64,000 nucleotides of DNA. Origin: Candidatus Roizmanbacteria bacterium GW2011_GWC1_37_12 (GTDB lineage Bacteria > Patescibacteriota > Microgenomatia > UBA1406 > GWC2-37-13). The translations under genes were made by a program, and so were the position numbers. Within the stretch, counting starts at the first letter, position 1, and the number at the start of each line of letters is the position of its first letter. The stretch covers positions 24,886 through 88,885 of the forward strand of contig LBST01000002.1 of NCBI GenBank assembly GCA_000991135.1. The letters run 5' to 3'. Below are positions 43,758 to 63,948 of the stretch, one piece after another. The notes under the pieces were generated by a model. The model made no database searches and had not been told where the DNA came from. It was given only the letters and a program-made list of their open reading frames with translations.

Positions 43758-44744
43758 TTATAGCGTTAGCGACTGATACCAATGAAATATTTTTTTTACC
43801 GTCAATTTGATATTACTTACCGGTTTCCAACCAAGAGCTTTTTTGATTTTTGAATAATCCAAAGATTGATAGGGGATTTCGTTTTTGGCGATATTTAAGA
43901 TTTTATAGTTAATTTTTTTACCCAAGACTTTTTCAACCACTTCGATTAATCGAAGTACGGAAAGAGTCTCTTTTGAACCAAAATTAAAAGCCTCGCCGCG
44001 GACTTTATCAATATTTTCCGCCAGTAACAAATACCCGTTAACAACATCCTTGACATAAAGATAGTCACGGACATATCTTCCGTTACTCCTAATTCTTAAT
44101 TCTGACTTGCCCGCCGAAGCTTTAGCGGAGGCGGGATTCTTAACTAAATATTTCATTATCCCAGGAATTATTCTTGAGAAGTTCAAATCGCCCTCTCCGT
44201 AGATATTGCCGAAACGGGTAACAACGGCAGGAATTTTATAGGTTTTTATGTAAGTAGTTGTGATTAAATCTGTTGCTGACTTTGACGTTTCGTATGGATG
44301 ATCACCTGATAGGGGATCAGACTCGACATATTTAATTTTGTTTAACTTACCATAGGCTTTGTCTGACGAGGCAACAATCACTCCCTTAATATTTTTATTC
44401 GTTCTGACGATTTCTAATATATTTACCGTGCTTAAGATATTGTTATCCAAAGTCCCTTTCGGATCATTATAGGCAACATCGACCAAAGCTTGGGCGGCAA
44501 GGTGAAAAATGAAGTCAATCTTATATTTTTTGACAAGGTCTAGAGTTTTTTTGTAATCGCAAATGTTGAGATTTATTACTTTGGATTTTTTATCAAGATT
44601 TTCTGAAAATAAATACGATCGTTTGTCAAAATTGATATCAACAACGATGACATTGGCTTTTTCTTTTATCAATTCTTCAACCAAATGACTCCCGACAAAA
44701 CCAGCTCCACCGGTAACGAGTACGTTTTTATTGATTATATTCAT
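43758..44744 (-). CDS. rfbG: CDP-glucose 4,6-dehydratase-like SDR with in-frame repeat insert
   Basis: VLVTGGAGFVGSHLVEEL, YETSKSATDLI, RFGNIYGEGDLNFSRIIPGIMKYL...RSNGRYVRDYLYVKDVVNGYLLLAE. Confidence 0.85.
   Translation of the reverse strand: MNIINKNVLVTGGAGFVGSHLVEELIKEKANVIVVDINFDKRSYLFSENLDKKSKVINLNICDYKKTLDLVKKYKIDFIFHLAAQALVDVAYNDPKGTLDNNILSTVNILEIVRTNKNIKGVIVASSDKAYGKLNKIKYVESDPLSGDHPYETSKSATDLITTTYIKTYKIPAVVTRFGNIYGEGDLNFSRIIPGIMKYLVKNPASAKASAGKSELRIRSNGRYVRDYLYVKDVVNGYLLLAENIDKVRGEAFNFGSKETLSVLRLIEVVEKVLGKKINYKILNIAKNEIPYQSLDYSKIKKALGWKPVSNIKLTVKKIFHWYQSLTL
43939..43956. repeat. 18-bp perfect palindrome inside rfbG, related to the 4523 palindrome
   Basis: acttcgatt|aatcgaagt. Confidence 0.9.
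44110..44135. repeat. GC-rich imperfect palindrome in rfbG encoding PASAKASAG
   Basis: cccgccgaagctttagcggaggcggg. Confidence 0.8.
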
Positions 44745-44749
44745 TGTAA

Positions 44750-44864
44750 TTTTTAATTATCAATTTACAATTTTCAATAAATTTTCATTTAAGCAATGTT
44801 TCAATTGAAACATTTAGTCATTGTAAATTCAATGTAAATTGAAAATGAAAAATAGAAAATTTTC
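44750..44864. repeat. Inverted repeat of heptad-type arms filling the rfbF-rfbG intergenic region
   Basis: Left caatttacaattttcaataaattttcattt; centre aatgtttcaattgaaacatt; right gtaaattcaatgtaaattgaaaatgaaaaatagaaaatttt. Confidence 0.8.
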
Positions 44865-45644
44865 TTATTTCCATATCTTCCATGCCGCCTTTCCTTCTTT
44901 CCACATCTTGTTCAAATCTTCTACTTCCTTGTAGGTATCCATGCAGAACCAGAAATTATTATGATAATAAATAGAGAGCTCGTTTTTTAACGCCAGTCTT
45001 TTTAAAAGATCGTGTTCCATCTCGCCCGGATTGATGTAATTGAAAGCCCTCTTGTCAAATATCATAAAGCCTCCATTGATCCAGTCGTTCAAAACCGGTT
45101 TTTCTACAAACTTTGTCACGAAATTATCTTTGGTTGTTTTGATCAAACCGTATTTTGATCGGGGATGGACTCCGGTAATCGTTCCGATAGTTTTTTGTTT
45201 TTTGTGAAATTTAACCAAAGCGTCGACATCAATATCAGAAACTCCGTCGCCATAAGTGACCATAAAGTATTTATCTTTCTTGGGTATGTATTTTTGGCAG
45301 CGGAGAATTCTTTCGCCCGGCATCGTCTCGATTCCAGTGTCAACAAATGTAATCTCAAAATTATCCACTTCATCCCTATCTTCAAGATAAAATTTTGGCT
45401 TATGATTCCTGGTATCCAAAGTGAAATCAGAAGTAAAGGCTTTTTGATTGAGAAAGAATTCTTTGATGTAGTCGGCTTTGTAGCCGAGAGCGAGAATGAA
45501 TTCGTTAAATCCGTATGAAGCGTAAATCTTCATAATATGCCAGAGGATCGGCTTGTTTCCTATAAAAACCATCGGCTTAGGCTTAAATTCTGTCTCTTCT
45601 TTTAGCCTCGTCCCGACGCCTCCACAGAGAATGATTACTTTCAT
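44865..45644 (-). CDS. rfbF: Glucose-1-phosphate cytidylyltransferase
   Basis: IILCGGVGTRLKEETEFKPKPMVFIGNKPILWHIMKIYASYGFNEFILALGYK...YGDGVSDID...WINGGFMIF. Confidence 0.95.
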   Translation of the reverse strand: MKVIILCGGVGTRLKEETEFKPKPMVFIGNKPILWHIMKIYASYGFNEFILALGYKADYIKEFFLNQKAFTSDFTLDTRNHKPKFYLEDRDEVDNFEITFVDTGIETMPGERILRCQKYIPKKDKYFMVTYGDGVSDIDVDALVKFHKKQKTIGTITGVHPRSKYGLIKTTKDNFVTKFVEKPVLNDWINGGFMIFDKRAFNYINPGEMEHDLLKRLALKNELSIYYHNNFWFCMDTYKEVEDLNKMWKEGKAAWKIWK

Positions 45645-46550: not shown

Positions 46551-47798
46551 ATGCACAAGGAAACCGCCTTTAAAATTCTCCTCTATATCCTAATCCCTCT
46601 ACAACTGTTGATCTTTACTTTCTTGGTTCCGCCTTTTCAAAAGCCCGACGAAAAACCTCATTTTGAAAAATCCCTTTTGATCAGCAAGGGTTATTTGTTC
46701 TGTCAAAAAAAATCGAATAACACGGTTCCCCTTGAAAAAAAATACATCGACTTTATTAAAAGAGGCCCTGAAAAAACCGATTTTAATATCGATTACCTCT
46801 GTAGCTTCCCAGTTATCTCTTATCTGCCTCAAGCGTTGGCATTAGTAATCGCCTCTATTTTCAAACTCAACCCGCTCTTGTCTTTGTATTTTGGCCGCCT
46901 GGCAATGGCTCTCCTTGGTTACTTTTGGTTTTTGTATCTTTATCGAAAAATATCTGATAATTATAAATTGATAGTTCTTTTCACTTTTTCTTTACCAATG
47001 ACCCTGCATCAAATTTCTTCTTTCAGTTACGATGCGCTCCACATCATGTTGGCGCTGACCTTTTTTACTTTAATAATGAACTACCGACTAAAAAAAAGGC
47101 TCGATTCTTGGATATATTTGAAATTGTTCTTTGTCCTATTCTTATTTTTATCGAGTAAAAAAATCGGCTATGAAACTTTCTATCTATTCCTTTTCTTGCT
47201 TCCCTTTAAAATAAAATCGATGATAGTATCGACTGTTATTTTTATCCCTTTTTATTTTTTATCGAAGATTACTGGATCTTATGATCTTCAATATTCACTG
47301 ACCAATCTAGTCTATAATCCTTTACAGCAGCTAAATTTTTTGTTATCCGATCCTTTTAACATATTAAAAGTAATAGCCATCACTACAATTCAGCGCCTGG
47401 GTTTTTACCTGCAAAGCATGATCGGAATTTTCGGTTGGCTCGAATATGGATTAGACCCATTATCCTATTTAATTTATGGATTATTGTTTGTTTATGTTAT
47501 CGTAGGGACAATTCATGAATTGTCCCTACAAAAATATAAAACAATATTGTTATTTTTAACTCTATTAATTTCCTATATTTTCATAGTTTTATTAGCTTTT
47601 GTTTTCAATACAACTGCCGGAGTGCTCACGGCCCACGGAATCCAGGGAAGATACTTTATTCCTTTTCTTCCATTTATTATTTTTTTTATTATCCAAATCA
47701 AAACCAGTCCGATTTTTCAGAAAGTTCTTTATCTTTCAATAGTTATTTTTCTTATATCAGCTACATTTTACGCTGTCTTTAAAAGATATTATTGGTAA
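46551..47798 (+). CDS. DUF2142-like membrane protein
   Basis: FLVPPFQKPDEKPHFEKSLLISKG N-terminal motif, about 11 TM segments. Confidence 0.75.
   Translation: MHKETAFKILLYILIPLQLLIFTFLVPPFQKPDEKPHFEKSLLISKGYLFCQKKSNNTVPLEKKYIDFIKRGPEKTDFNIDYLCSFPVISYLPQALALVIASIFKLNPLLSLYFGRLAMALLGYFWFLYLYRKISDNYKLIVLFTFSLPMTLHQISSFSYDALHIMLALTFFTLIMNYRLKKRLDSWIYLKLFFVLFLFLSSKKIGYETFYLFLFLLPFKIKSMIVSTVIFIPFYFLSKITGSYDLQYSLTNLVYNPLQQLNFLLSDPFNILKVIAITTIQRLGFYLQSMIGIFGWLEYGLDPLSYLIYGLLFVYVIVGTIHELSLQKYKTILLFLTLLISYIFIVLLAFVFNTTAGVLTAHGIQGRYFIPFLPFIIFFIIQIKTSPIFQKVLYLSIVIFLISATFYAVFKRYYW
47502..47529. repeat. 28-bp perfect palindrome inside the DUF2142-like CDS
   Basis: gtagggacaattca|tgaattgtccctac. Confidence 0.95.
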
Positions 47799-48501: not shown

Positions 48502-48524
48502 TTTGTAGCGTATAGTCTATAGAC
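48502..48524. repeat. 23-nt dispersed repeat copy 1
   Basis: tttgtagcgtatagtctatagac, identical to 63913-63935. Confidence 0.92.
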
Positions 48525-48563
48525 AATTTCCAATTAATAATTTACAATTTTCAATAAAATTAC
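48525..48563. repeat. Left flanking repeat of the four-helix-bundle ORF
   Basis: caatttccaattaataatttacaattttcaataaaatta; shares tttacaattttcaataaa with the 44.76 kb element. Confidence 0.8.
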
Positions 48564-48564
48564 T

Positions 48565-48930
48565 ATGACTCAATTTACAATAAAATACGATTTGGAAGAT
48601 AGAACTGCTAGGTTTGGAGAGCAAATAATAATGTTTTGCAAAAGCATTAATGAAACTACTATTTCAAGACCGATTATTAATCAGCTTATAAAATCAGCAA
48701 CAAGTATTGGGGCAAATTATATGGAGGCAAACGGCGCTAGTTCAAGAGGTGATTTTAGAAACAAAATATTTATCTGTAAAAAAGAATCTCAGGAAACAAA
48801 ACATTGGCTTAGGATGTTAGGCGTTTACGATTCTGGTCTTAAAGAAAAGATTATACCACTTTGGAATGAAGCTCAATCCCTAACGATGATCTTCCAGAAA
48901 ATAACCAATTCTCTTAATAAAAAGGTTTGA
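48565..48930 (+). CDS. Four-helix-bundle protein (23S rRNA intervening-sequence protein family)
   Basis: RFGEQIIMFCKSI...PIINQLIKSATSIGANYMEANGASSRGDFRNKIFICKKESQETKHWLRML; 121 aa. Confidence 0.88.
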   Translation: MTQFTIKYDLEDRTARFGEQIIMFCKSINETTISRPIINQLIKSATSIGANYMEANGASSRGDFRNKIFICKKESQETKHWLRMLGVYDSGLKEKIIPLWNEAQSLTMIFQKITNSLNKKV

Positions 48931-48931
48931 T

Positions 48932-48990
48932 AATTGAAGATTGAATCATTCAATGTAAATTGGAAATGGAAAATGGAAAATTTATAGGGT
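48932..48990. repeat. Right flanking repeat of the four-helix-bundle ORF
   Basis: attgaagattgaatcattcaatgtaaattggaaatggaaaatggaaaattta; imperfect inverted copy of the left flank. Confidence 0.8.
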
Positions 48991-49024: not shown

Positions 49025-50161
49025 ATGAAGATTGGAATTGATATCACGATGCTGGTCTATGCCGGATCAGGAGTCGCCAGCTATACTTATAATCTAGTAA
49101 AAAACCTTCTTGAAAATGACCATCAAAACGAGTATCGACTTTTCTATTCAAGTTTTAGACGGCCGAAAAATTTTTACTATCTTAAAGAGCTAAAAAAACT
49201 TGGAGGAAAAATCTATCAATATCCATTTCCTCCTACACTTTTAAAAATTATTTGGGGAAGACTGAATATCATCCCTATCGAATGGTTTACCGGAAAGGTC
49301 GATGTTTTTTTCTTTTCCGATTTTCTTCGTCCACCCCTATTGCCTGGAACAAAAGGAATAACGACGATTCATGATTTGACTTGGAAATTGTTTCCCCAAT
49401 ACCATACTCAAGACGTGATTTCCGCCCACGAAAAAAAATTAGAAAAAACGATTAAATATAATGATGAAATTATCGTCGACTCGGAAAATACAAAAGTTGA
49501 TTTATTTAAGCTCTATCCTCAAATTAATAAAAACAAAGTTCACATCATCTATCCAGGAATCGACGAAAGCTTTAAACCCATTGATGATGAAAAGACAATT
49601 GAACAAGTATTAAACAAATATTTCAAATTTCAAATTTCAAATTTCAAATTTTTATTATATGTGGGTGCTATAGAACCGCGTAAAAATCTGACCGCCGCTA
49701 TCAAAATTTTCTACGAATTAATCCACAACCAACAATTTAACAATATAACAATTGAACAATTTATTATTATTGGCAGAGCGGGATGGAAAAACGAAAAAGT
49801 CTACCAGTTGGTCAAAGACCTTCATCTCGAAGATAAAGTTAAATTCTTAGGGTTCGTCGAAGACAGCGACTTGCCTTATTTTTATAACGCCTGCCGCGCT
49901 TTTATTTATCTATCCAAATATGAAGGCTTTGGCCTTCCTCCGGTTGAAGCGGCTGCCTGCGGAAAAATGGTCCTTCTATACCAAAATTCTTCCCTCAAGG
50001 AAATATTCAAACCTGGTTATCCCTTTACTAGAGTTGGGGAGGAGTTAAAAACTTTAAAAGAAATTATTGATGGCAAATACGATATAAAAAAATATCAAAA
50101 AGAATTTTCCTGGGCCACCTATTGCCATCGGTTCTTAAAAATATTAGAATCTAGTCAATGA
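49025..50161 (+). CDS. Glycosyltransferase family 4
   Basis: LYVGAIEPRKNLTAAIKIF...YLSKYEGFGLPPVEAAACGKMVLLYQNSSLKEI. Confidence 0.92.
   Translation: MKIGIDITMLVYAGSGVASYTYNLVKNLLENDHQNEYRLFYSSFRRPKNFYYLKELKKLGGKIYQYPFPPTLLKIIWGRLNIIPIEWFTGKVDVFFFSDFLRPPLLPGTKGITTIHDLTWKLFPQYHTQDVISAHEKKLEKTIKYNDEIIVDSENTKVDLFKLYPQINKNKVHIIYPGIDESFKPIDDEKTIEQVLNKYFKFQISNFKFLLYVGAIEPRKNLTAAIKIFYELIHNQQFNNITIEQFIIIGRAGWKNEKVYQLVKDLHLEDKVKFLGFVEDSDLPYFYNACRAFIYLSKYEGFGLPPVEAAACGKMVLLYQNSSLKEIFKPGYPFTRVGEELKTLKEIIDGKYDIKKYQKEFSWATYCHRFLKILESSQ
49621..49648. repeat. Perfect heptanucleotide tandem repeat (TTTCAAA)4 inside a GT4 CDS
   Basis: tttcaaa x4, encoding FKFQISNFKF. Confidence 0.95.
49731..49762. repeat. 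8-bp tandem repeat inside a GT4 CDS
   Basis: aacaattt aacaatat aacaattg aacaattt. Confidence 0.85.
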
Positions 50162-52315: not shown

Positions 52316-53599
52316 ATGCTCGGAAGAATCCTTGGCTTTATCAAAAAACCCACCAGCCGCGACATTCTCATTAATACCATCGGCAACTACTTAAATGTTT
52401 TCTTCGTCGCCTTTTTTGCCTTTTTGCTGGTTCGCATCATGCAACCTTCAGACTATGGGGTCTTAAGTGTTTTATTGGGAGTTTCGTATGTCCTCGCTAA
52501 TATTCTTGACTTTGGCACGACCGCCAGCATCTATTCATACTTACCGCCGATGATTGAAAAACGCCACAAAAATACCTATATCTTTCTTAAAACTATATTT
52601 TCTTATCAAACCGGTTTTTCCCTGATCGTCATTACGCTTCTTTTTCTTTTTTTCCCTTACTTGGATAGAATATTTTTCAAGACGGGCGCTCCGAAATGGG
52701 AACTCTATCTGACGACCTTTTCCGTCCTCTTTTTTATCTGGCAAAACTACGCGATAAACGCTCTCAACGCCGGAAAACAATTTTTAAAAGCTAATCTCTA
52801 TCTTAACCTCTCAAACATTACGAAAACTGCTTTGATTTTTGTCCTTATTCCTCTAAAACTGGTAAACGTGGGGACGATCATCTTTGCTTTTGGTATCTTT
52901 GGTCCATTGACTTTTTTCCTTTTTTTGTTCTTTGAAAAAAAACACATCTTTCTTTCGATTATTAGAGCGCCGGTCAAAAAAGAAGAGTTTCGCTTCGGTT
53001 ATACGATGACTTTTTTTATCGCTTCCCAGTTTTTTAATTTAGCGTCTCGGATGGACCTGTTTTTGTTATCTTTTTTCCTTTCTAAATCACCGGAGGTAGG
53101 CTACTACGGTTTATCCCAAAAAATTATTCTCACGGTGATGGCTTCAATTGCCTCGATCACTCAAGTCTTATCGCCAAATTTTTCTAAGATAAAAACGAAA
53201 CAAGAAGTCGTTAAAGAATTTAGCCACGGATTTTTGTATCTTTTAGTCCCTGCCTTTCTTTTTGTAGCACTATTTTTTACCCCTAATTGGGTTTTTTATA
53301 TTTTTTTCACCGAAAAGTTCGCCCAAACCGCCGAGATCACCAAGGCTTTGAGCCTGCCTTTTATTATCTATACCTTTCTCAACCTCCCTTTTCTTTTTTT
53401 GCTTTATACCGTCAAAAAACCAAAAGTAATCCTCTTTAGCAATATAATTTTCTTCGTTGTCGTAACGGCCGGCTGTTATTACACAATTCCCAAATACGGA
53501 GTCTTTGGACCACCGCCCATCATTGCCTTAGGACTTATACTCATTCTTATTGTCAGCTTGATTTTCAGCATCAAAGAGTATAAAAAAATCACTGCCTAG
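52316..53599 (+). CDS. Oligosaccharide flippase (Wzx/MATE-like)
   Basis: NTIGNYLNVFFVAFFAFLLVRIMQPSDYGVLSVLLGVSYVLANILDFGTTASI; about 12 TM segments. Confidence 0.88.
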   Translation: MLGRILGFIKKPTSRDILINTIGNYLNVFFVAFFAFLLVRIMQPSDYGVLSVLLGVSYVLANILDFGTTASIYSYLPPMIEKRHKNTYIFLKTIFSYQTGFSLIVITLLFLFFPYLDRIFFKTGAPKWELYLTTFSVLFFIWQNYAINALNAGKQFLKANLYLNLSNITKTALIFVLIPLKLVNVGTIIFAFGIFGPLTFFLFLFFEKKHIFLSIIRAPVKKEEFRFGYTMTFFIASQFFNLASRMDLFLLSFFLSKSPEVGYYGLSQKIILTVMASIASITQVLSPNFSKIKTKQEVVKEFSHGFLYLLVPAFLFVALFFTPNWVFYIFFTEKFAQTAEITKALSLPFIIYTFLNLPFLFLLYTVKKPKVILFSNIIFFVVVTAGCYYTIPKYGVFGPPPIIALGLILILIVSLIFSIKEYKKITA

Positions 53600-54971
53600 A
53601 ATACTCTTCTAAAATTAGTCCTCGAAAGGATTTTTTATTAGTCAAACTAAATTTTTTTTCTTGGAGAAGTTTTTGATAATCTAATCCATGAATGTCAGCC
53701 GTATAAGGAATAACTAGGATTTTTTTATCCTTTAATTCGTAATCCGCAATCCGTAATTCTTTAATCAATAAATTTGGGTGATAATATTTGACTGGATCAC
53801 TCGACGACAAAATCATATAAACCGATTTATCACTAGGCAGACTTTTTACCAAGCTCTTCCAGTCTTCACGATGAAATTGCGGAAACAAAAGATAGACCAA
53901 AGAAAACACTAAAAACCCCATAGCTATTGCCAGGCCCTGCCTCCGCAACCTCGGAGGTTGCCGATCGGCCTTGTCTGATAAGCTAAAACTAAGCAAAATT
54001 GCCATAATCGGAATTAGGTATATGAAGCGGAAGTATTGAAGTAGGGGAGTGAAAAATGAAATAATAAAACCTAGGATTAATGGAAAAGTAAACAAGTATA
54101 ATAACAAAATTTTCAATTTGAAATTTTCAATTTTCAATGAATCTTCAATTTTTAATTTTAAATTATTAAATAATATAGAAAAAACGAATAACGACCATAA
54201 ACCACTTATAAAGTAATATATCCACTTAGGATAAAAGTCAATTCTGCCAATACTGAACTTTATAGGAATCAAAAGTAGGTTCTTAACGTTTGCTTTCCCC
54301 AATACATACGACCAATTAGTCACATTGGTCATAGAAATTTTAGCATTAATCAACTGTTGATGAAGTAGGGGAGAAACCAGCAAAAAATCTACAAATACTA
54401 CAAATAAACAAATAAACAAATTCTTATATTGCCGTTTATAAAGAAAACATAGTAAGAACGCTGCTATTAAAAAAACCGAACCGTAAAATGTCAAAAGCGC
54501 TAAAGTACAAAATAATAAAAAAAATATTTGATTTTTAATATGTATTTTTGATTTTTGATTTTTGATATTTGATATAAAAAAATAGAGTGCTACTGTCAAG
54601 AAGAACGTCGCCATTAAATACATTCTTGCTTCTTGAGAATAGTAAACAATTAATGGATTAAATAGAAAAAATATTGCCGACCAGATTCCACCGATCAAAT
54701 AGACTACATATCCTGTCATTAGACTAAATAAGACCGACGGAATTCTTAAAGATATTTCCGAATAGCCGAAAATATTTGTCCAGAACTTCATAAATAAGTA
54801 ATAAAGAGGCGGATGAAAATCAAGAGGAGAAAATTTAGTAATAATTTCTGAATAATTATAATTTTGAATAACCTTCGCCGTCGTCGCCTCATCTAACCAA
54901 AGAGATTGATCCAAAGCAATTAAACGAATTAGGAAAGCGAAAAGAAAAACCAGAATAACTTTTTTATTCAT
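53589..54971 (-). CDS. GT-C dolichyl-phosphate-mannose mannosyltransferase-like (PMT/ArnT) membrane protein
   Basis: LDQSLWLDEATTAKVIQNY...FHPPLYYLFMKFWTNIFGYSEISLRIPSVLF; contains several in-frame repeat tracts. Confidence 0.85.
   Translation of the reverse strand: MNKKVILVFLFAFLIRLIALDQSLWLDEATTAKVIQNYNYSEIITKFSPLDFHPPLYYLFMKFWTNIFGYSEISLRIPSVLFSLMTGYVVYLIGGIWSAIFFLFNPLIVYYSQEARMYLMATFFLTVALYFFISNIKNQKSKIHIKNQIFFLLFCTLALLTFYGSVFLIAAFLLCFLYKRQYKNLFICLFVVFVDFLLVSPLLHQQLINAKISMTNVTNWSYVLGKANVKNLLLIPIKFSIGRIDFYPKWIYYFISGLWSLFVFSILFNNLKLKIEDSLKIENFKLKILLLYLFTFPLILGFIISFFTPLLQYFRFIYLIPIMAILLSFSLSDKADRQPPRLRRQGLAIAMGFLVFSLVYLLFPQFHREDWKSLVKSLPSDKSVYMILSSSDPVKYYHPNLLIKELRIADYELKDKKILVIPYTADIHGLDYQKLLQEKKFSLTNKKSFRGLILEEYSRQ
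53734..53765. repeat. Heptad-period repeat in the PMT-like CDS
   Basis: aattcgt aatccgc aatccgt aattctt taat; encodes IKELRIADYEL. Confidence 0.85.
53945..53961. repeat. 17-bp palindrome inside the PMT-like CDS
   Basis: gcaacctc-g-gaggttgc, within a GC-rich tract encoding DRQPPRLRRQG. Confidence 0.8.
54113..54172. repeat. Heptad-period repeat in the PMT-like CDS
   Basis: attttca atttgaa attttca attttca atgaatc ttcaatt tttaatt ttaaatt. Confidence 0.75.
54537..54578. repeat. 42-bp dispersed repeat copy A (heptad period)
   Basis: aatatgtatttttgatttttgatttttgatatttgatataaa; 2 mismatches to 57859-57900. Confidence 0.9.
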
Positions 54972-56083: not shown

Positions 56084-56100
56084 AAGTATATTCTAACAAT

Positions 56101-56232
56101 AAACGGTTAAGTATTAAACTGTTAAAACCTAAAAAAACTTATTAAACATTAAACTACTAAACAAAAACATGTTTAATGTTTTTCAGTTTTAATAGTTTTT
56201 TTAACTGTTTAAGTTTTAACCGTTTAACTGTT
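56101..56232. repeat. Long imperfect inverted repeat of TAAACNN heptads between eamA and galE
   Basis: Left aaacggttaagtattaaactgttaaaacctaaaaaaac...; right ...agtttttttaactgtttaagttttaaccgttt. Confidence 0.88.
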
Positions 56233-57127
56233 TTCTTAATTTATGAAACGGGTGCCAGTGAATTCTTCCCTCTGCCAGATAGATTCCCCCAAAAACAAGT
56301 AGGGAACCAACCACGTAGTACAAGCTGGGAATTTCCCCCAAAAGAGGCGCGGCGATGAGTACGGCAATCACCGGATCGATATAAGTAAAAAGACCGACTT
56401 CCTGGGCGGCCAGTTTTGAAATTCCATAATAATAAAGAAAATACGCCAAAGCAGAAGAAAAAAATACTCCAAAAATTATTCCAGTCAAACCTTGAAAATT
56501 TAGTTGATCAAAACTCCACGAATTCAATTCTTTAGCTGCCAAAGGCAAAAAAGTTAAACTACCAAATAGAAAAGAAACTACCGATACTAAGTACGGGTTA
56601 ATTTTTCTTAAAACATTTTTGCTTACAAGAGTTTGAAAAACAGTGCCAAAGGTAGCAATTAAAATAAACAAGTTTCCTTCTATTTCACCCGCGACTATCT
56701 TTTTACCATCTAATAAAACCGGAGAAAAAATGATTGTTATCACTCCAAGTAATGCAATCATCATTCCTGATAAAACCTTAAGTTTTGGTTTTTCTCTTAA
56801 AAATAAGACTGAAAATAGATAGATAAATACTGGTCCTGATGAGGCGATTACCGGAACATTGATGCTTTCGGTTTTTTGTAAGCCTAAAAAGAAAAAAGCA
56901 ATATTGATCGTTATTCCGAAAAAGCCGATCCAGAGAATATGGACAAACTGCTGAAGGGAGATTTTCTGTCTGTGCCGCATAGCAAAAGGAATGAGAATCA
57001 ATCCGGCGAAAAAGAACCTGATGAAAGCCAAGATAAAAGGTGGAATGTTTTGCAAGGCAAATTTGAAAACCGGCGAGGCCGCACCCCAGATGATGTTGGT
57101 AATTATTAATGCCAAAACGGGATTCAT
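56216..57127 (-). CDS. EamA/DMT-family transporter
   Basis: NIIWGAASPVFKFALQNIPPFILAFIRFFFAGLILIPF; 10 TM segments; last codons derive from the adjacent repeat. Confidence 0.88.
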   Translation of the reverse strand: MNPVLALIITNIIWGAASPVFKFALQNIPPFILAFIRFFFAGLILIPFAMRHRQKISLQQFVHILWIGFFGITINIAFFFLGLQKTESINVPVIASSGPVFIYLFSVLFLREKPKLKVLSGMMIALLGVITIIFSPVLLDGKKIVAGEIEGNLFILIATFGTVFQTLVSKNVLRKINPYLVSVVSFLFGSLTFLPLAAKELNSWSFDQLNFQGLTGIIFGVFFSSALAYFLYYYGISKLAAQEVGLFTYIDPVIAVLIAAPLLGEIPSLYYVVGSLLVFGGIYLAEGRIHWHPFHKLRKQLNG

Positions 57128-58029
57128 TTCTTTTTACTCAAGTAGACTATTAATTCGCCGATTATTCCTGTCATCAATATCTGTATTCCAACAATAATAA
57201 GAAGCAAGCCCAACCAGAGGAGTGGGCGAGTCACTAATAAAACCCCAAAAAATAATCTTTCGATGGTCAAATAGAAAGAAATCAAAAAACCGATAAAGAA
57301 AATAATCCCTCCTATTGATCCAAAAAAATGAAGCGGCCTCTCGGCAAATTGGTAAAGAAAATAGGCAGTCAGGGTATCAAAGATTCCGGTTATTAATTTT
57401 CCCGTACCAAACTTAGATTTTCCAAATTTTCGCGGATTGTTTCTCACCTCAATTTCTGTCACCTTATTTCCATTATAAAAAACATAAAGAGGAAAAAAAC
57501 GGAAATTGTTCCCATAAAAAACAAAATCCTTGATAACTTCACGTCTGAAGGCTTTGAATCCGCAGTTGATGTCGGTATAGGGCGAGTGGAGAAACGTCTG
57601 CAGGAAATTTTTAGCCATACGTGAATAAAACTTGACTAACGGGTTATCTTCTCTCTTTTTTCTTATTCCGTTGACAAAATCATAGCCTTCTTCGATTTTT
57701 TCAATAAGTCTCGGCAAATCTTTCGGGTCATCCTGTAAATCCCCATCCATAAAAATAATTATTTCTCCTGTAGAATTTTCTATTCCCGTTTTGAGAGCTT
57801 GTCCTTTTCCCAACCTCTTTTTATGATTTATTAATTTGATTATTTCTTTTTGATATTTAATATGTGTTTTTGATATTTGATTTTTGATATTTGATATAAA
57901 GTCATCAGTCGACCCGTCATCAACCAATACAATCTCGTATTCTTTGTTCTTTAACTGCTTTACTAAAAGGTCAACCAATACTGGCAAATTTTCTTTCTCG
58001 TTATAAAAAGGAACAATTATTGAAATCAT
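57124..58029 (-). CDS. Glycosyltransferase family 2 with C-terminal TM helices
   Basis: ISIIVPFYNEKENLPVLVDLL...VDDGSTDDF...FMDGDLQDDPKDLPRLI. Confidence 0.92.
   Translation of the reverse strand: MISIIVPFYNEKENLPVLVDLLVKQLKNKEYEIVLVDDGSTDDFISNIKNQISKTHIKYQKEIIKLINHKKRLGKGQALKTGIENSTGEIIIFMDGDLQDDPKDLPRLIEKIEEGYDFVNGIRKKREDNPLVKFYSRMAKNFLQTFLHSPYTDINCGFKAFRREVIKDFVFYGNNFRFFPLYVFYNGNKVTEIEVRNNPRKFGKSKFGTGKLITGIFDTLTAYFLYQFAERPLHFFGSIGGIIFFIGFLISFYLTIERLFFGVLLVTRPLLWLGLLLIIVGIQILMTGIIGELIVYLSKKK
57859..57900. repeat. 42-bp dispersed repeat copy B (heptad period)
   Basis: aatatgtgtttttgatatttgatttttgatatttgatataaa. Confidence 0.9.
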
Positions 58030-63912: not shown

Positions 63913-63935
63913 TTTGTAGCGTATAGTCTATAGAC
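63913..63935. repeat. 23-nt dispersed repeat copy 2
   Basis: tttgtagcgtatagtctatagac. Confidence 0.92.
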
Positions 63936-63948
63936 TTTCTAAAAGAAA

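Follow-up and report, generated by a model that had tools for sequence, protein, structure and literature searches.

The intervening sequences (IVS) of 23S rRNA genes have been called selfish since the 1990s, with no known way of moving. The heptamer repeats of cyanobacteria are known as STRR. In Coxiella, the IVS is ~428 nt long and consists of an S23p ORF with complementary ends; just 5' of the ORF lie two to three tandem GACAGAT heptamers and a degenerate one, in a number that varies with the strain (PMC4990558). Older proposals, as summarized in PMC4990558, treat IVS as transposition remnants or mobile elements, with the ORF serving mobility. Tandem heptamers without a known source include the Xanthomonas repeat GGGAATC, with 70 inverted pairs in X. 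campestris (Xcc), and GGGGATT of Nostoc (PMC4692102), as well as the TAACTGA repeats of the Beggiatoaceae; such heptamers outnumber every other class of long simple repeat in many bacterial genomes, again without a known source (PMC4679880). Among the open-access papers searched, none was found that joins S23p or the IVS with these heptamers of unexplained origin.

The unit described here reprises the 23S rRNA IVS of Leptospira and Coxiella in its protein family (S23p), in the complementary arms around a single ORF and in its length of ~430 nt. Unlike the IVS, our units occur between protein genes, carry copy-specific arrays on both sides, and are accompanied by gene-less derivatives and empty sites. 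REP/REPIN-RAYT systems, in which dispersed palindromic repeats are also tied to one flanked gene, differ in that the RAYT gene flanked by REPs encodes a Y1 domain, of which the S23p unit has none; moreover, the unit has arrays in place of a fixed palindrome, and both can occur apart.

The S23p gene and its flanking arrays

The window, by which we mean the whole stretch of 64,000 nucleotides analysed, from Candidatus Roizmanbacteria bacterium GW2011_GWC1_37_12, contains an ORF of 121 aa on the forward strand at 48565..48930. A first-pass annotation of the sequence had taken its product for a four-helix bundle of the 23S IVS type. Four helices are indeed predicted, and the profile scores, 46.6 bits against PF05635 (cut-off 33.8) and 64.2 bits against TIGR02436 (S23p, '23S IVS protein'; cut-off 24), place the protein in this family. 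The unit has an epimerase gene and a glycosyltransferase gene on either side; no rRNA gene occurs in the window, and the unit therefore lies outside any 23S rRNA gene. To the left of the ORF (48524..48559, plus strand) is an array of degenerate heptamers, CAATTTC CAATTAATAATTTA CAATTTT CAATAAA, and to the right (48931..48983, minus strand) an array inverted with respect to it, TTGAATCATTCAATGTAAATTGGAAATGGAAAATGGAAAATTT. This second array has its homologue in the right half of the gene-less elements described below. Both arrays are of the CAATTTN type. No transposase is found between them, the S23p ORF being the sole ORF there.

The imperfect inverted repeats that the annotation had quoted around the ORF are real, but it had missed both their nature as heptamer arrays and a gene-less copy in the same window. 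Judged on the window pair alone, the evidence for an inverted repeat is modest, indeed marginal: a local alignment of the left flank with the inverted right flank scores 28 (rank p = 0.032), where mismatched pairs have a median of 17. The complementary borders typical of a 23S IVS ORF are thus weak here, and it is across the family that they become strong and far exceed chance. The genome to which the window belongs, G000 (994,505 bases, 18 contigs), has six PF05635 genes. In five of them, those whose two flanks are both readable, the gene has short arrays in inverted orientation around it, and no two of the genes share an array unit; L004, the sixth, is truncated at the end of its contig but has a visible left array. 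A PF05635 gene is present in 17 of the 20 genomes of the genus, with more than 80 matches in total. When the left flank of each of 63 full-length copies was aligned with the reverse complement of its own right flank, the median score was 40, while mismatched copies, the direct orientation and 75 neighbour genes each gave a median of 17 (Mann-Whitney p of 2e-18, 9e-32 and 6e-14, respectively); 86% of the copies lie above the 95th percentile of the neighbour-gene controls.

The same holds far beyond the genus. A scan of named genomes yielded 80 loci from Patescibacteria, Bacteroidota, Nitrospirota, Omnitrophota, Aminicenantes, Atribacteria, Elusimicrobia, Planctomycetes and others. Phages, in contrast, gave no match to S23p. 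The 83 copies of this broad set have a median score of 26, against 16 for 248 control genes (p 7e-23), and 72% exceed the control 95th percentile. Of the flanks with a clear period, 47 of 52 in the broad set and 43 of 71 in the genus have a period of 7, by far the commonest value, versus 1-2 in shuffled flanks, and an arm holds about five heptamers (medians of 4.6 and 5.4). The array unit varies from copy to copy, while the left and right arrays of one copy match. Roughly 14% of the genus units have no inverted match, and a few units (L407, L199, L044 and L063) have arrays in direct orientation. Copy number is patchy: of three genomes of one genus that each consist of a single contig, one has 5 copies, another 8 and the third 0. 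Long forms of S23p (~190-320 aa, e.g. L006, L091 and L092) were excluded from these statistics. Such forms occur in several genomes (L006, L086, L091, L092 and L101), and in at least L006 and L091 they too adjoin arrays. The association of repeats with family, which the first-pass annotation had named as a check, is therefore strong, and a search across relatives for the ORF at the same location without flanking repeats likewise left its claim standing. The observation is confirmed and is far more general than had been stated.

Gene-less copies, array load and empty sites

The gene-less copy in the window (44748..44861, no strand assigned) is an inverted array of 114 nt with two 57-nt arms, which fills the gap between two genes and shares an exact 18-mer with the left end of the unit. 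The 18-mer of the left array, TTTACAATTTTCAATAAA, has exact matches at five other places in the genome. In all, G000 contains ~14 dispersed gene-less copies of the window-unit type, ~115 nt each, whose consensus ends, CAATTTTCAATTATCAATTTACAATTTTCAATAAA and, for the right half, ATTCAATGTAAATTGAAAACTGAAAATTG, are homologous to both flanks of the window unit. As with MITEs and their autonomous partners, these copies are short, numerous and dispersed, and share their inverted ends with a longer gene-bearing copy in the same genome. Unlike MITE partners, the gene-bearing S23p unit has no recognisable transposase, and the tandem heptamer ends differ between copies. A second gene-less inverted array in the window (56100..56226, likewise without strand), with the unit TTAAACGGTTAAG/TTTTAACTGTTTAAG, is of the type that surrounds the S23p genes L081, L083 and L088 of other genomes.

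Arrays of the heptamer type are also seen outside such settings. A solo array of four to five AAATTTC heptamers (49617..49654, no strand assigned) lies in frame within the glycosyltransferase ORF, and it and similar arrays within protein genes (53589-54971 and 57124-58029) add low-complexity peptides, such as FKFQISNFKF and NIKNQKSKIHIKNQ in the latter two. At L118, an intergenic stretch has several array types in a row and no S23p gene.

The number of arrays in a genome tracks the presence of PF05635 at matched GC. With a common heptamer array pattern, the three genomes of the genus that lack PF05635 (G003, G005 and G016) rank lowest of 20, with 0, 2 and 1 hits, while the other 17 have 4-237; the chance of this ranking is 1 in 1140, a figure that treats the counts as independent although the genomes are related. 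When stretches of 100-400 kb were scanned directly, G016 had 0.3 arrays per 100 kb and G005 had 0.0, these being the two of the three genomes sampled at length. Among genomes that carry the gene, the density was 2.0 in G010, 9.1 in G000 and 13.0 in G017; in shuffled sequence it was 0.0. GC is equal (0.37) in G016, G010 and G000. Counts of the unit-specific 18-mer in carriers across the genus other than G000 are suggestive only, given the AT-rich background.

Filled and empty sites can be compared in several lineages. Upstream of the window glycosyltransferase, some relatives lack a unit, some have a solo array, and some have a unit that is of a different type (L065/L111); in L106, a gene matching window positions 46551-47798 is directly upstream of the glycosyltransferase. 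Between recJ and nadD of Chryseobacterium, a unit occurs in at least 17 of 120 species. Where it is missing, as in most other species, the alignment has two pieces that abut where recJ stops and nadD starts, with a spacer as short as 6-25 nt in contrast to ~425 nt when filled. Variants of this site include deletion derivatives (L260, L262 and L265) and an ORF-less inverted array (L263). The sharing of a single site by many species implies that the unit moves rarely there.

The clearest pair comes from conjugative plasmids of cyanobacteria. The empty site of Tolypothrix and Nostoc carneum reads AAAAAGTAA-TTAACAAATAAAT, and the filled site of Trichormus and Scytonema reads AAAAAGTAA-(TAAATCAGAATTCAGAAGTCAG..ORF..CTCCTGAGTTCTTCTTT)-GTAA-TTAACAAATAAAT, an insertion of ~430 bp between flanks that are 97-98% identical (97.8%). 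GTAA is found once in the empty site and twice, on both sides of the insert, in the filled Trichormus site. This suggests a possible 4-bp target-site duplication, clear at this one site, where 3 bp cannot be told from 4; none is clear at the Chryseobacterium site or at three further plasmid sites. A truncated remnant occupies the same plasmid site in Nostoc C052, and in Brasilonema there is an array of the same heptamer but no ORF. Three more plasmid sites, in Calothrix, N. edaphicum and Pseudanabaena, also have empty counterparts; in this group, Nostoc ATCC 53789, 97.3% identical to the filled plasmid, has ORF-less arrays at the site. The idea that the array unit is copied from the target, hinted at by recJ of Chryseobacterium (TTTAGGGATTAG), was dropped because no target-copied unit occurs at the Trichormus or N. 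edaphicum sites.

Some S23p units of cyanobacterial plasmids (L407, L416 and L422) are within CRISPR-Cas operons, at cas6-cas4 and cas10-cmr3 positions, and leave the genes unbroken; the Pseudanabaena copy in such an operon has very long, perfect arrays in direct orientation. In L003 (669-2010), the 3' end of the gene in front of the S23p unit recurs 3' of the unit as a diverged second copy (FLRLIRVNILKIPGFG vs FILRLIGVNILKIPGFN).

Polymerase slippage, which has been proposed for heptamer simple repeats, could in principle make the heptamer arrays, with S23p genes merely inserting into or next to them, and heptamer number does differ among close relatives, both in Coxiella and between Trichormus and Scytonema. 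Slippage, however, yields no inverted arrays on both sides of one gene, the arrays are missing from empty sites, and, at equal GC, a genome's array load depends on whether it has the gene, all of which makes this a very improbable account. We instead regard flank, ORF and flank as what appears to be one mobile module, a reading well supported by these comparisons, and consider it likely that 48524-48983 is a minimal mobile element made up of an S23p gene and heptamer-array ends, its movement being read from such sites.

The dispersed repeat upstream of the unit

The first-pass annotation had also noted a dispersed 23-nt repeat in front of the unit (48502..48526, plus strand, TTTGTAGCGTATAGTCTATAGACAA) and had counted it towards the module. 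The repeat exists, with 27 copies in the genome against 0 for a control pattern, but it does not belong to the unit. It is found 37-99 nt upstream of the start codons of many unrelated genes. TTTGTAGCGTATAGTCTATAGACAA is part of a conserved block of ~70 nt ending in TTTTGTAGCGTATAGTCTATAGAC, which has a second copy in the window (63913-63937), occurs also in L007-L033, and precedes by ~50-80 nt the start codons of Y1/RAYT-type, GIY-YIG and TrpR-like genes, a ComM-like gene, recA and S23p. The 23-nt element precedes 29 of 74 S23p units, whereas among the remaining ORFs of these loci it precedes 4 of 263 (p 1e-17). Which variant is present depends on the host genome and not on the unit: L059 and L067 have near-identical units but different variants. 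It was therefore rejected as an end of the unit, and looks like a promoter- or operator-like regulatory site of the host, with a GTC-N4-GAC palindrome. The ~70-nt block is possibly an element of an SOS or competence regulon; it is absent from the sampled stretches of genomes without S23p. In L004 (G000:C17), a lexA-like gene is divergent from the S23p unit, with one element of this block between them.

The S23p protein and the proposed movement of the unit

The predicted fold of the window protein (pLDDT 90) is closest to the solved structure 2rld (TM 0.86), with 2gsc also similar (0.72), and both of these S23p relatives have five chains per entry. XCC0516 (2gsc) has been published as five four-helix bundles, according to the reference given in PMC10053308. 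Over 14 Chryseobacterium orthologues of S23p, dN/dS is ~0.09, which is purifying selection and indicates that the protein matters. We know of no catalytic site in a four-helix bundle of this kind and expect no catalytic activity.

The next matches to the predicted fold are Avd proteins of DGRs (8ub7, TM 0.74; 4dwl, 0.64-0.66), and the homology of S23p and Avd has been noted previously (PMC10053308). Avd, too, is a pentameric four-helix bundle, and from the fold one might suppose a retro-mobile module served, like that DGR accessory, by a resident reverse transcriptase. Unlike DGRs, though, the genus has no match to the reverse transcriptase model RVT_1 (PF00078) in any of its 20 genomes, and we give this route next to no credence. 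The annotation had spoken of a transposable or retro-mobile module. Mobility is upheld by unrelated sites, empty sites, ORF-less copies and array load; 'retro-mobile' is not supported.

Arrays and S23p units might also be passengers, moved in trans by another transposase, most likely a Y1/RAYT-type enzyme that these genomes also carry, with S23p as an accessory or cargo. Y1_Tnp is indeed missing as well from the three genomes that lack S23p and arrays, and the upstream promoter-like element is common to Y1-type genes and S23p. On the other hand, G013 and G018 have S23p units and arrays without a Y1_Tnp match, so that a resident Y1 enzyme seems unneeded for their presence, albeit in incomplete genomes; a Y1 transposase thus looks dispensable. 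Every unit, moreover, carries S23p alone, and array type follows S23p relatedness. An array type is common to 71% of non-syntenic unit pairs at >60% protein identity but to 6-9% at <35%, and the correlation of protein relatedness with array type holds in unrelated surroundings (Mantel p 0.001). The DNA homology of related units runs from in or just before the left array to in or just after the right one. We therefore think passenger status unlikely.

Nor do we favour a host-useful cassette, in which an RNA stem cut by RNase III or an operon insulator, with S23p as regulator, spreads by homologous recombination. RNase III does cut the IVS in 23S rRNA (PMC4990558), units occur within operons (e.g. 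cas6-cas4 and cas10-cmr3), and S23p is under strong purifying selection. A selfish element would nevertheless account better for the patchy distribution, the decay of some copies, the unrelated sites and the dispersal of copies that lack the gene, and the gene-less copy of the window (44742-44866) folds as RNA no better than its shuffles (z -1.1), which led us to discard a plain RNA hairpin as the conserved feature. We rate such a cassette as decidedly improbable. For the array at 56100-56226, the predicted hairpin has -38.6 kcal/mol (z -6.0).

The presence of one gene per unit, the dN/dS value, the lack of RVT_1 and the apparent dispensability of Y1 favour S23p as the mobility factor. We infer that the S23p pentamer is the unit's own such factor, acting on the heptamer arrays with host enzymes. 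The pentamer would bind about one heptamer per subunit, and hence five per arm, and would bring both ends together in a hairpin, made of single-stranded DNA or of RNA. Inserting this hairpin would fall to replication or repair enzymes of the host, with intergenic DNA as the target, frequently where the gene upstream has its stop codon; gene-less copies would be moved in trans. Through slippage and hairpin-templated repair each copy could drift to its own heptamer, because on this proposal only left-right complementarity matters. The IVS of 23S rRNA would then go back to a unit of this kind inserted into an rRNA loop, and is probably a special case of a one-gene element with heptamer-array ends.

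The heptamers of orphan status resemble the S23p arrays in being intergenic and tandem, in forming inverted pairs and in missing from the same place in relatives, and the solved XCC0516 is from the same Xanthomonas as the GGGAATC repeats. In contrast to the S23p units, they have never been tied to S23p in the papers that report them, and the link is a prediction. At about even chances we place the wider proposal of a transposase-less class of elements in many phyla, in which a non-enzymatic S23p pentamer would recognise ends of ~five heptamers and move them, along with gene-less derivatives, via host enzymes, with each lineage drifting to its own heptamer. The orphan heptamers of cyanobacteria, Xanthomonas, Beggiatoaceae and Patescibacteria would stem from such a class, and so would the 23S IVS.

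If S23p does the moving, the element is mobile although it encodes no catalytic protein. The units have precedents in IVS and MITEs, but should S23p prove to be the sole mobility factor, they would deserve a class of their own. S23p units may account for the heptamer repeats that bacteria have long been reported to carry. The mobility of the 23S IVS and the source of bacterial tandem heptamers are two old puzzles with, maybe, one answer, and a one-gene unit with heptamer ends and precise empty sites in many phyla makes both directly testable.
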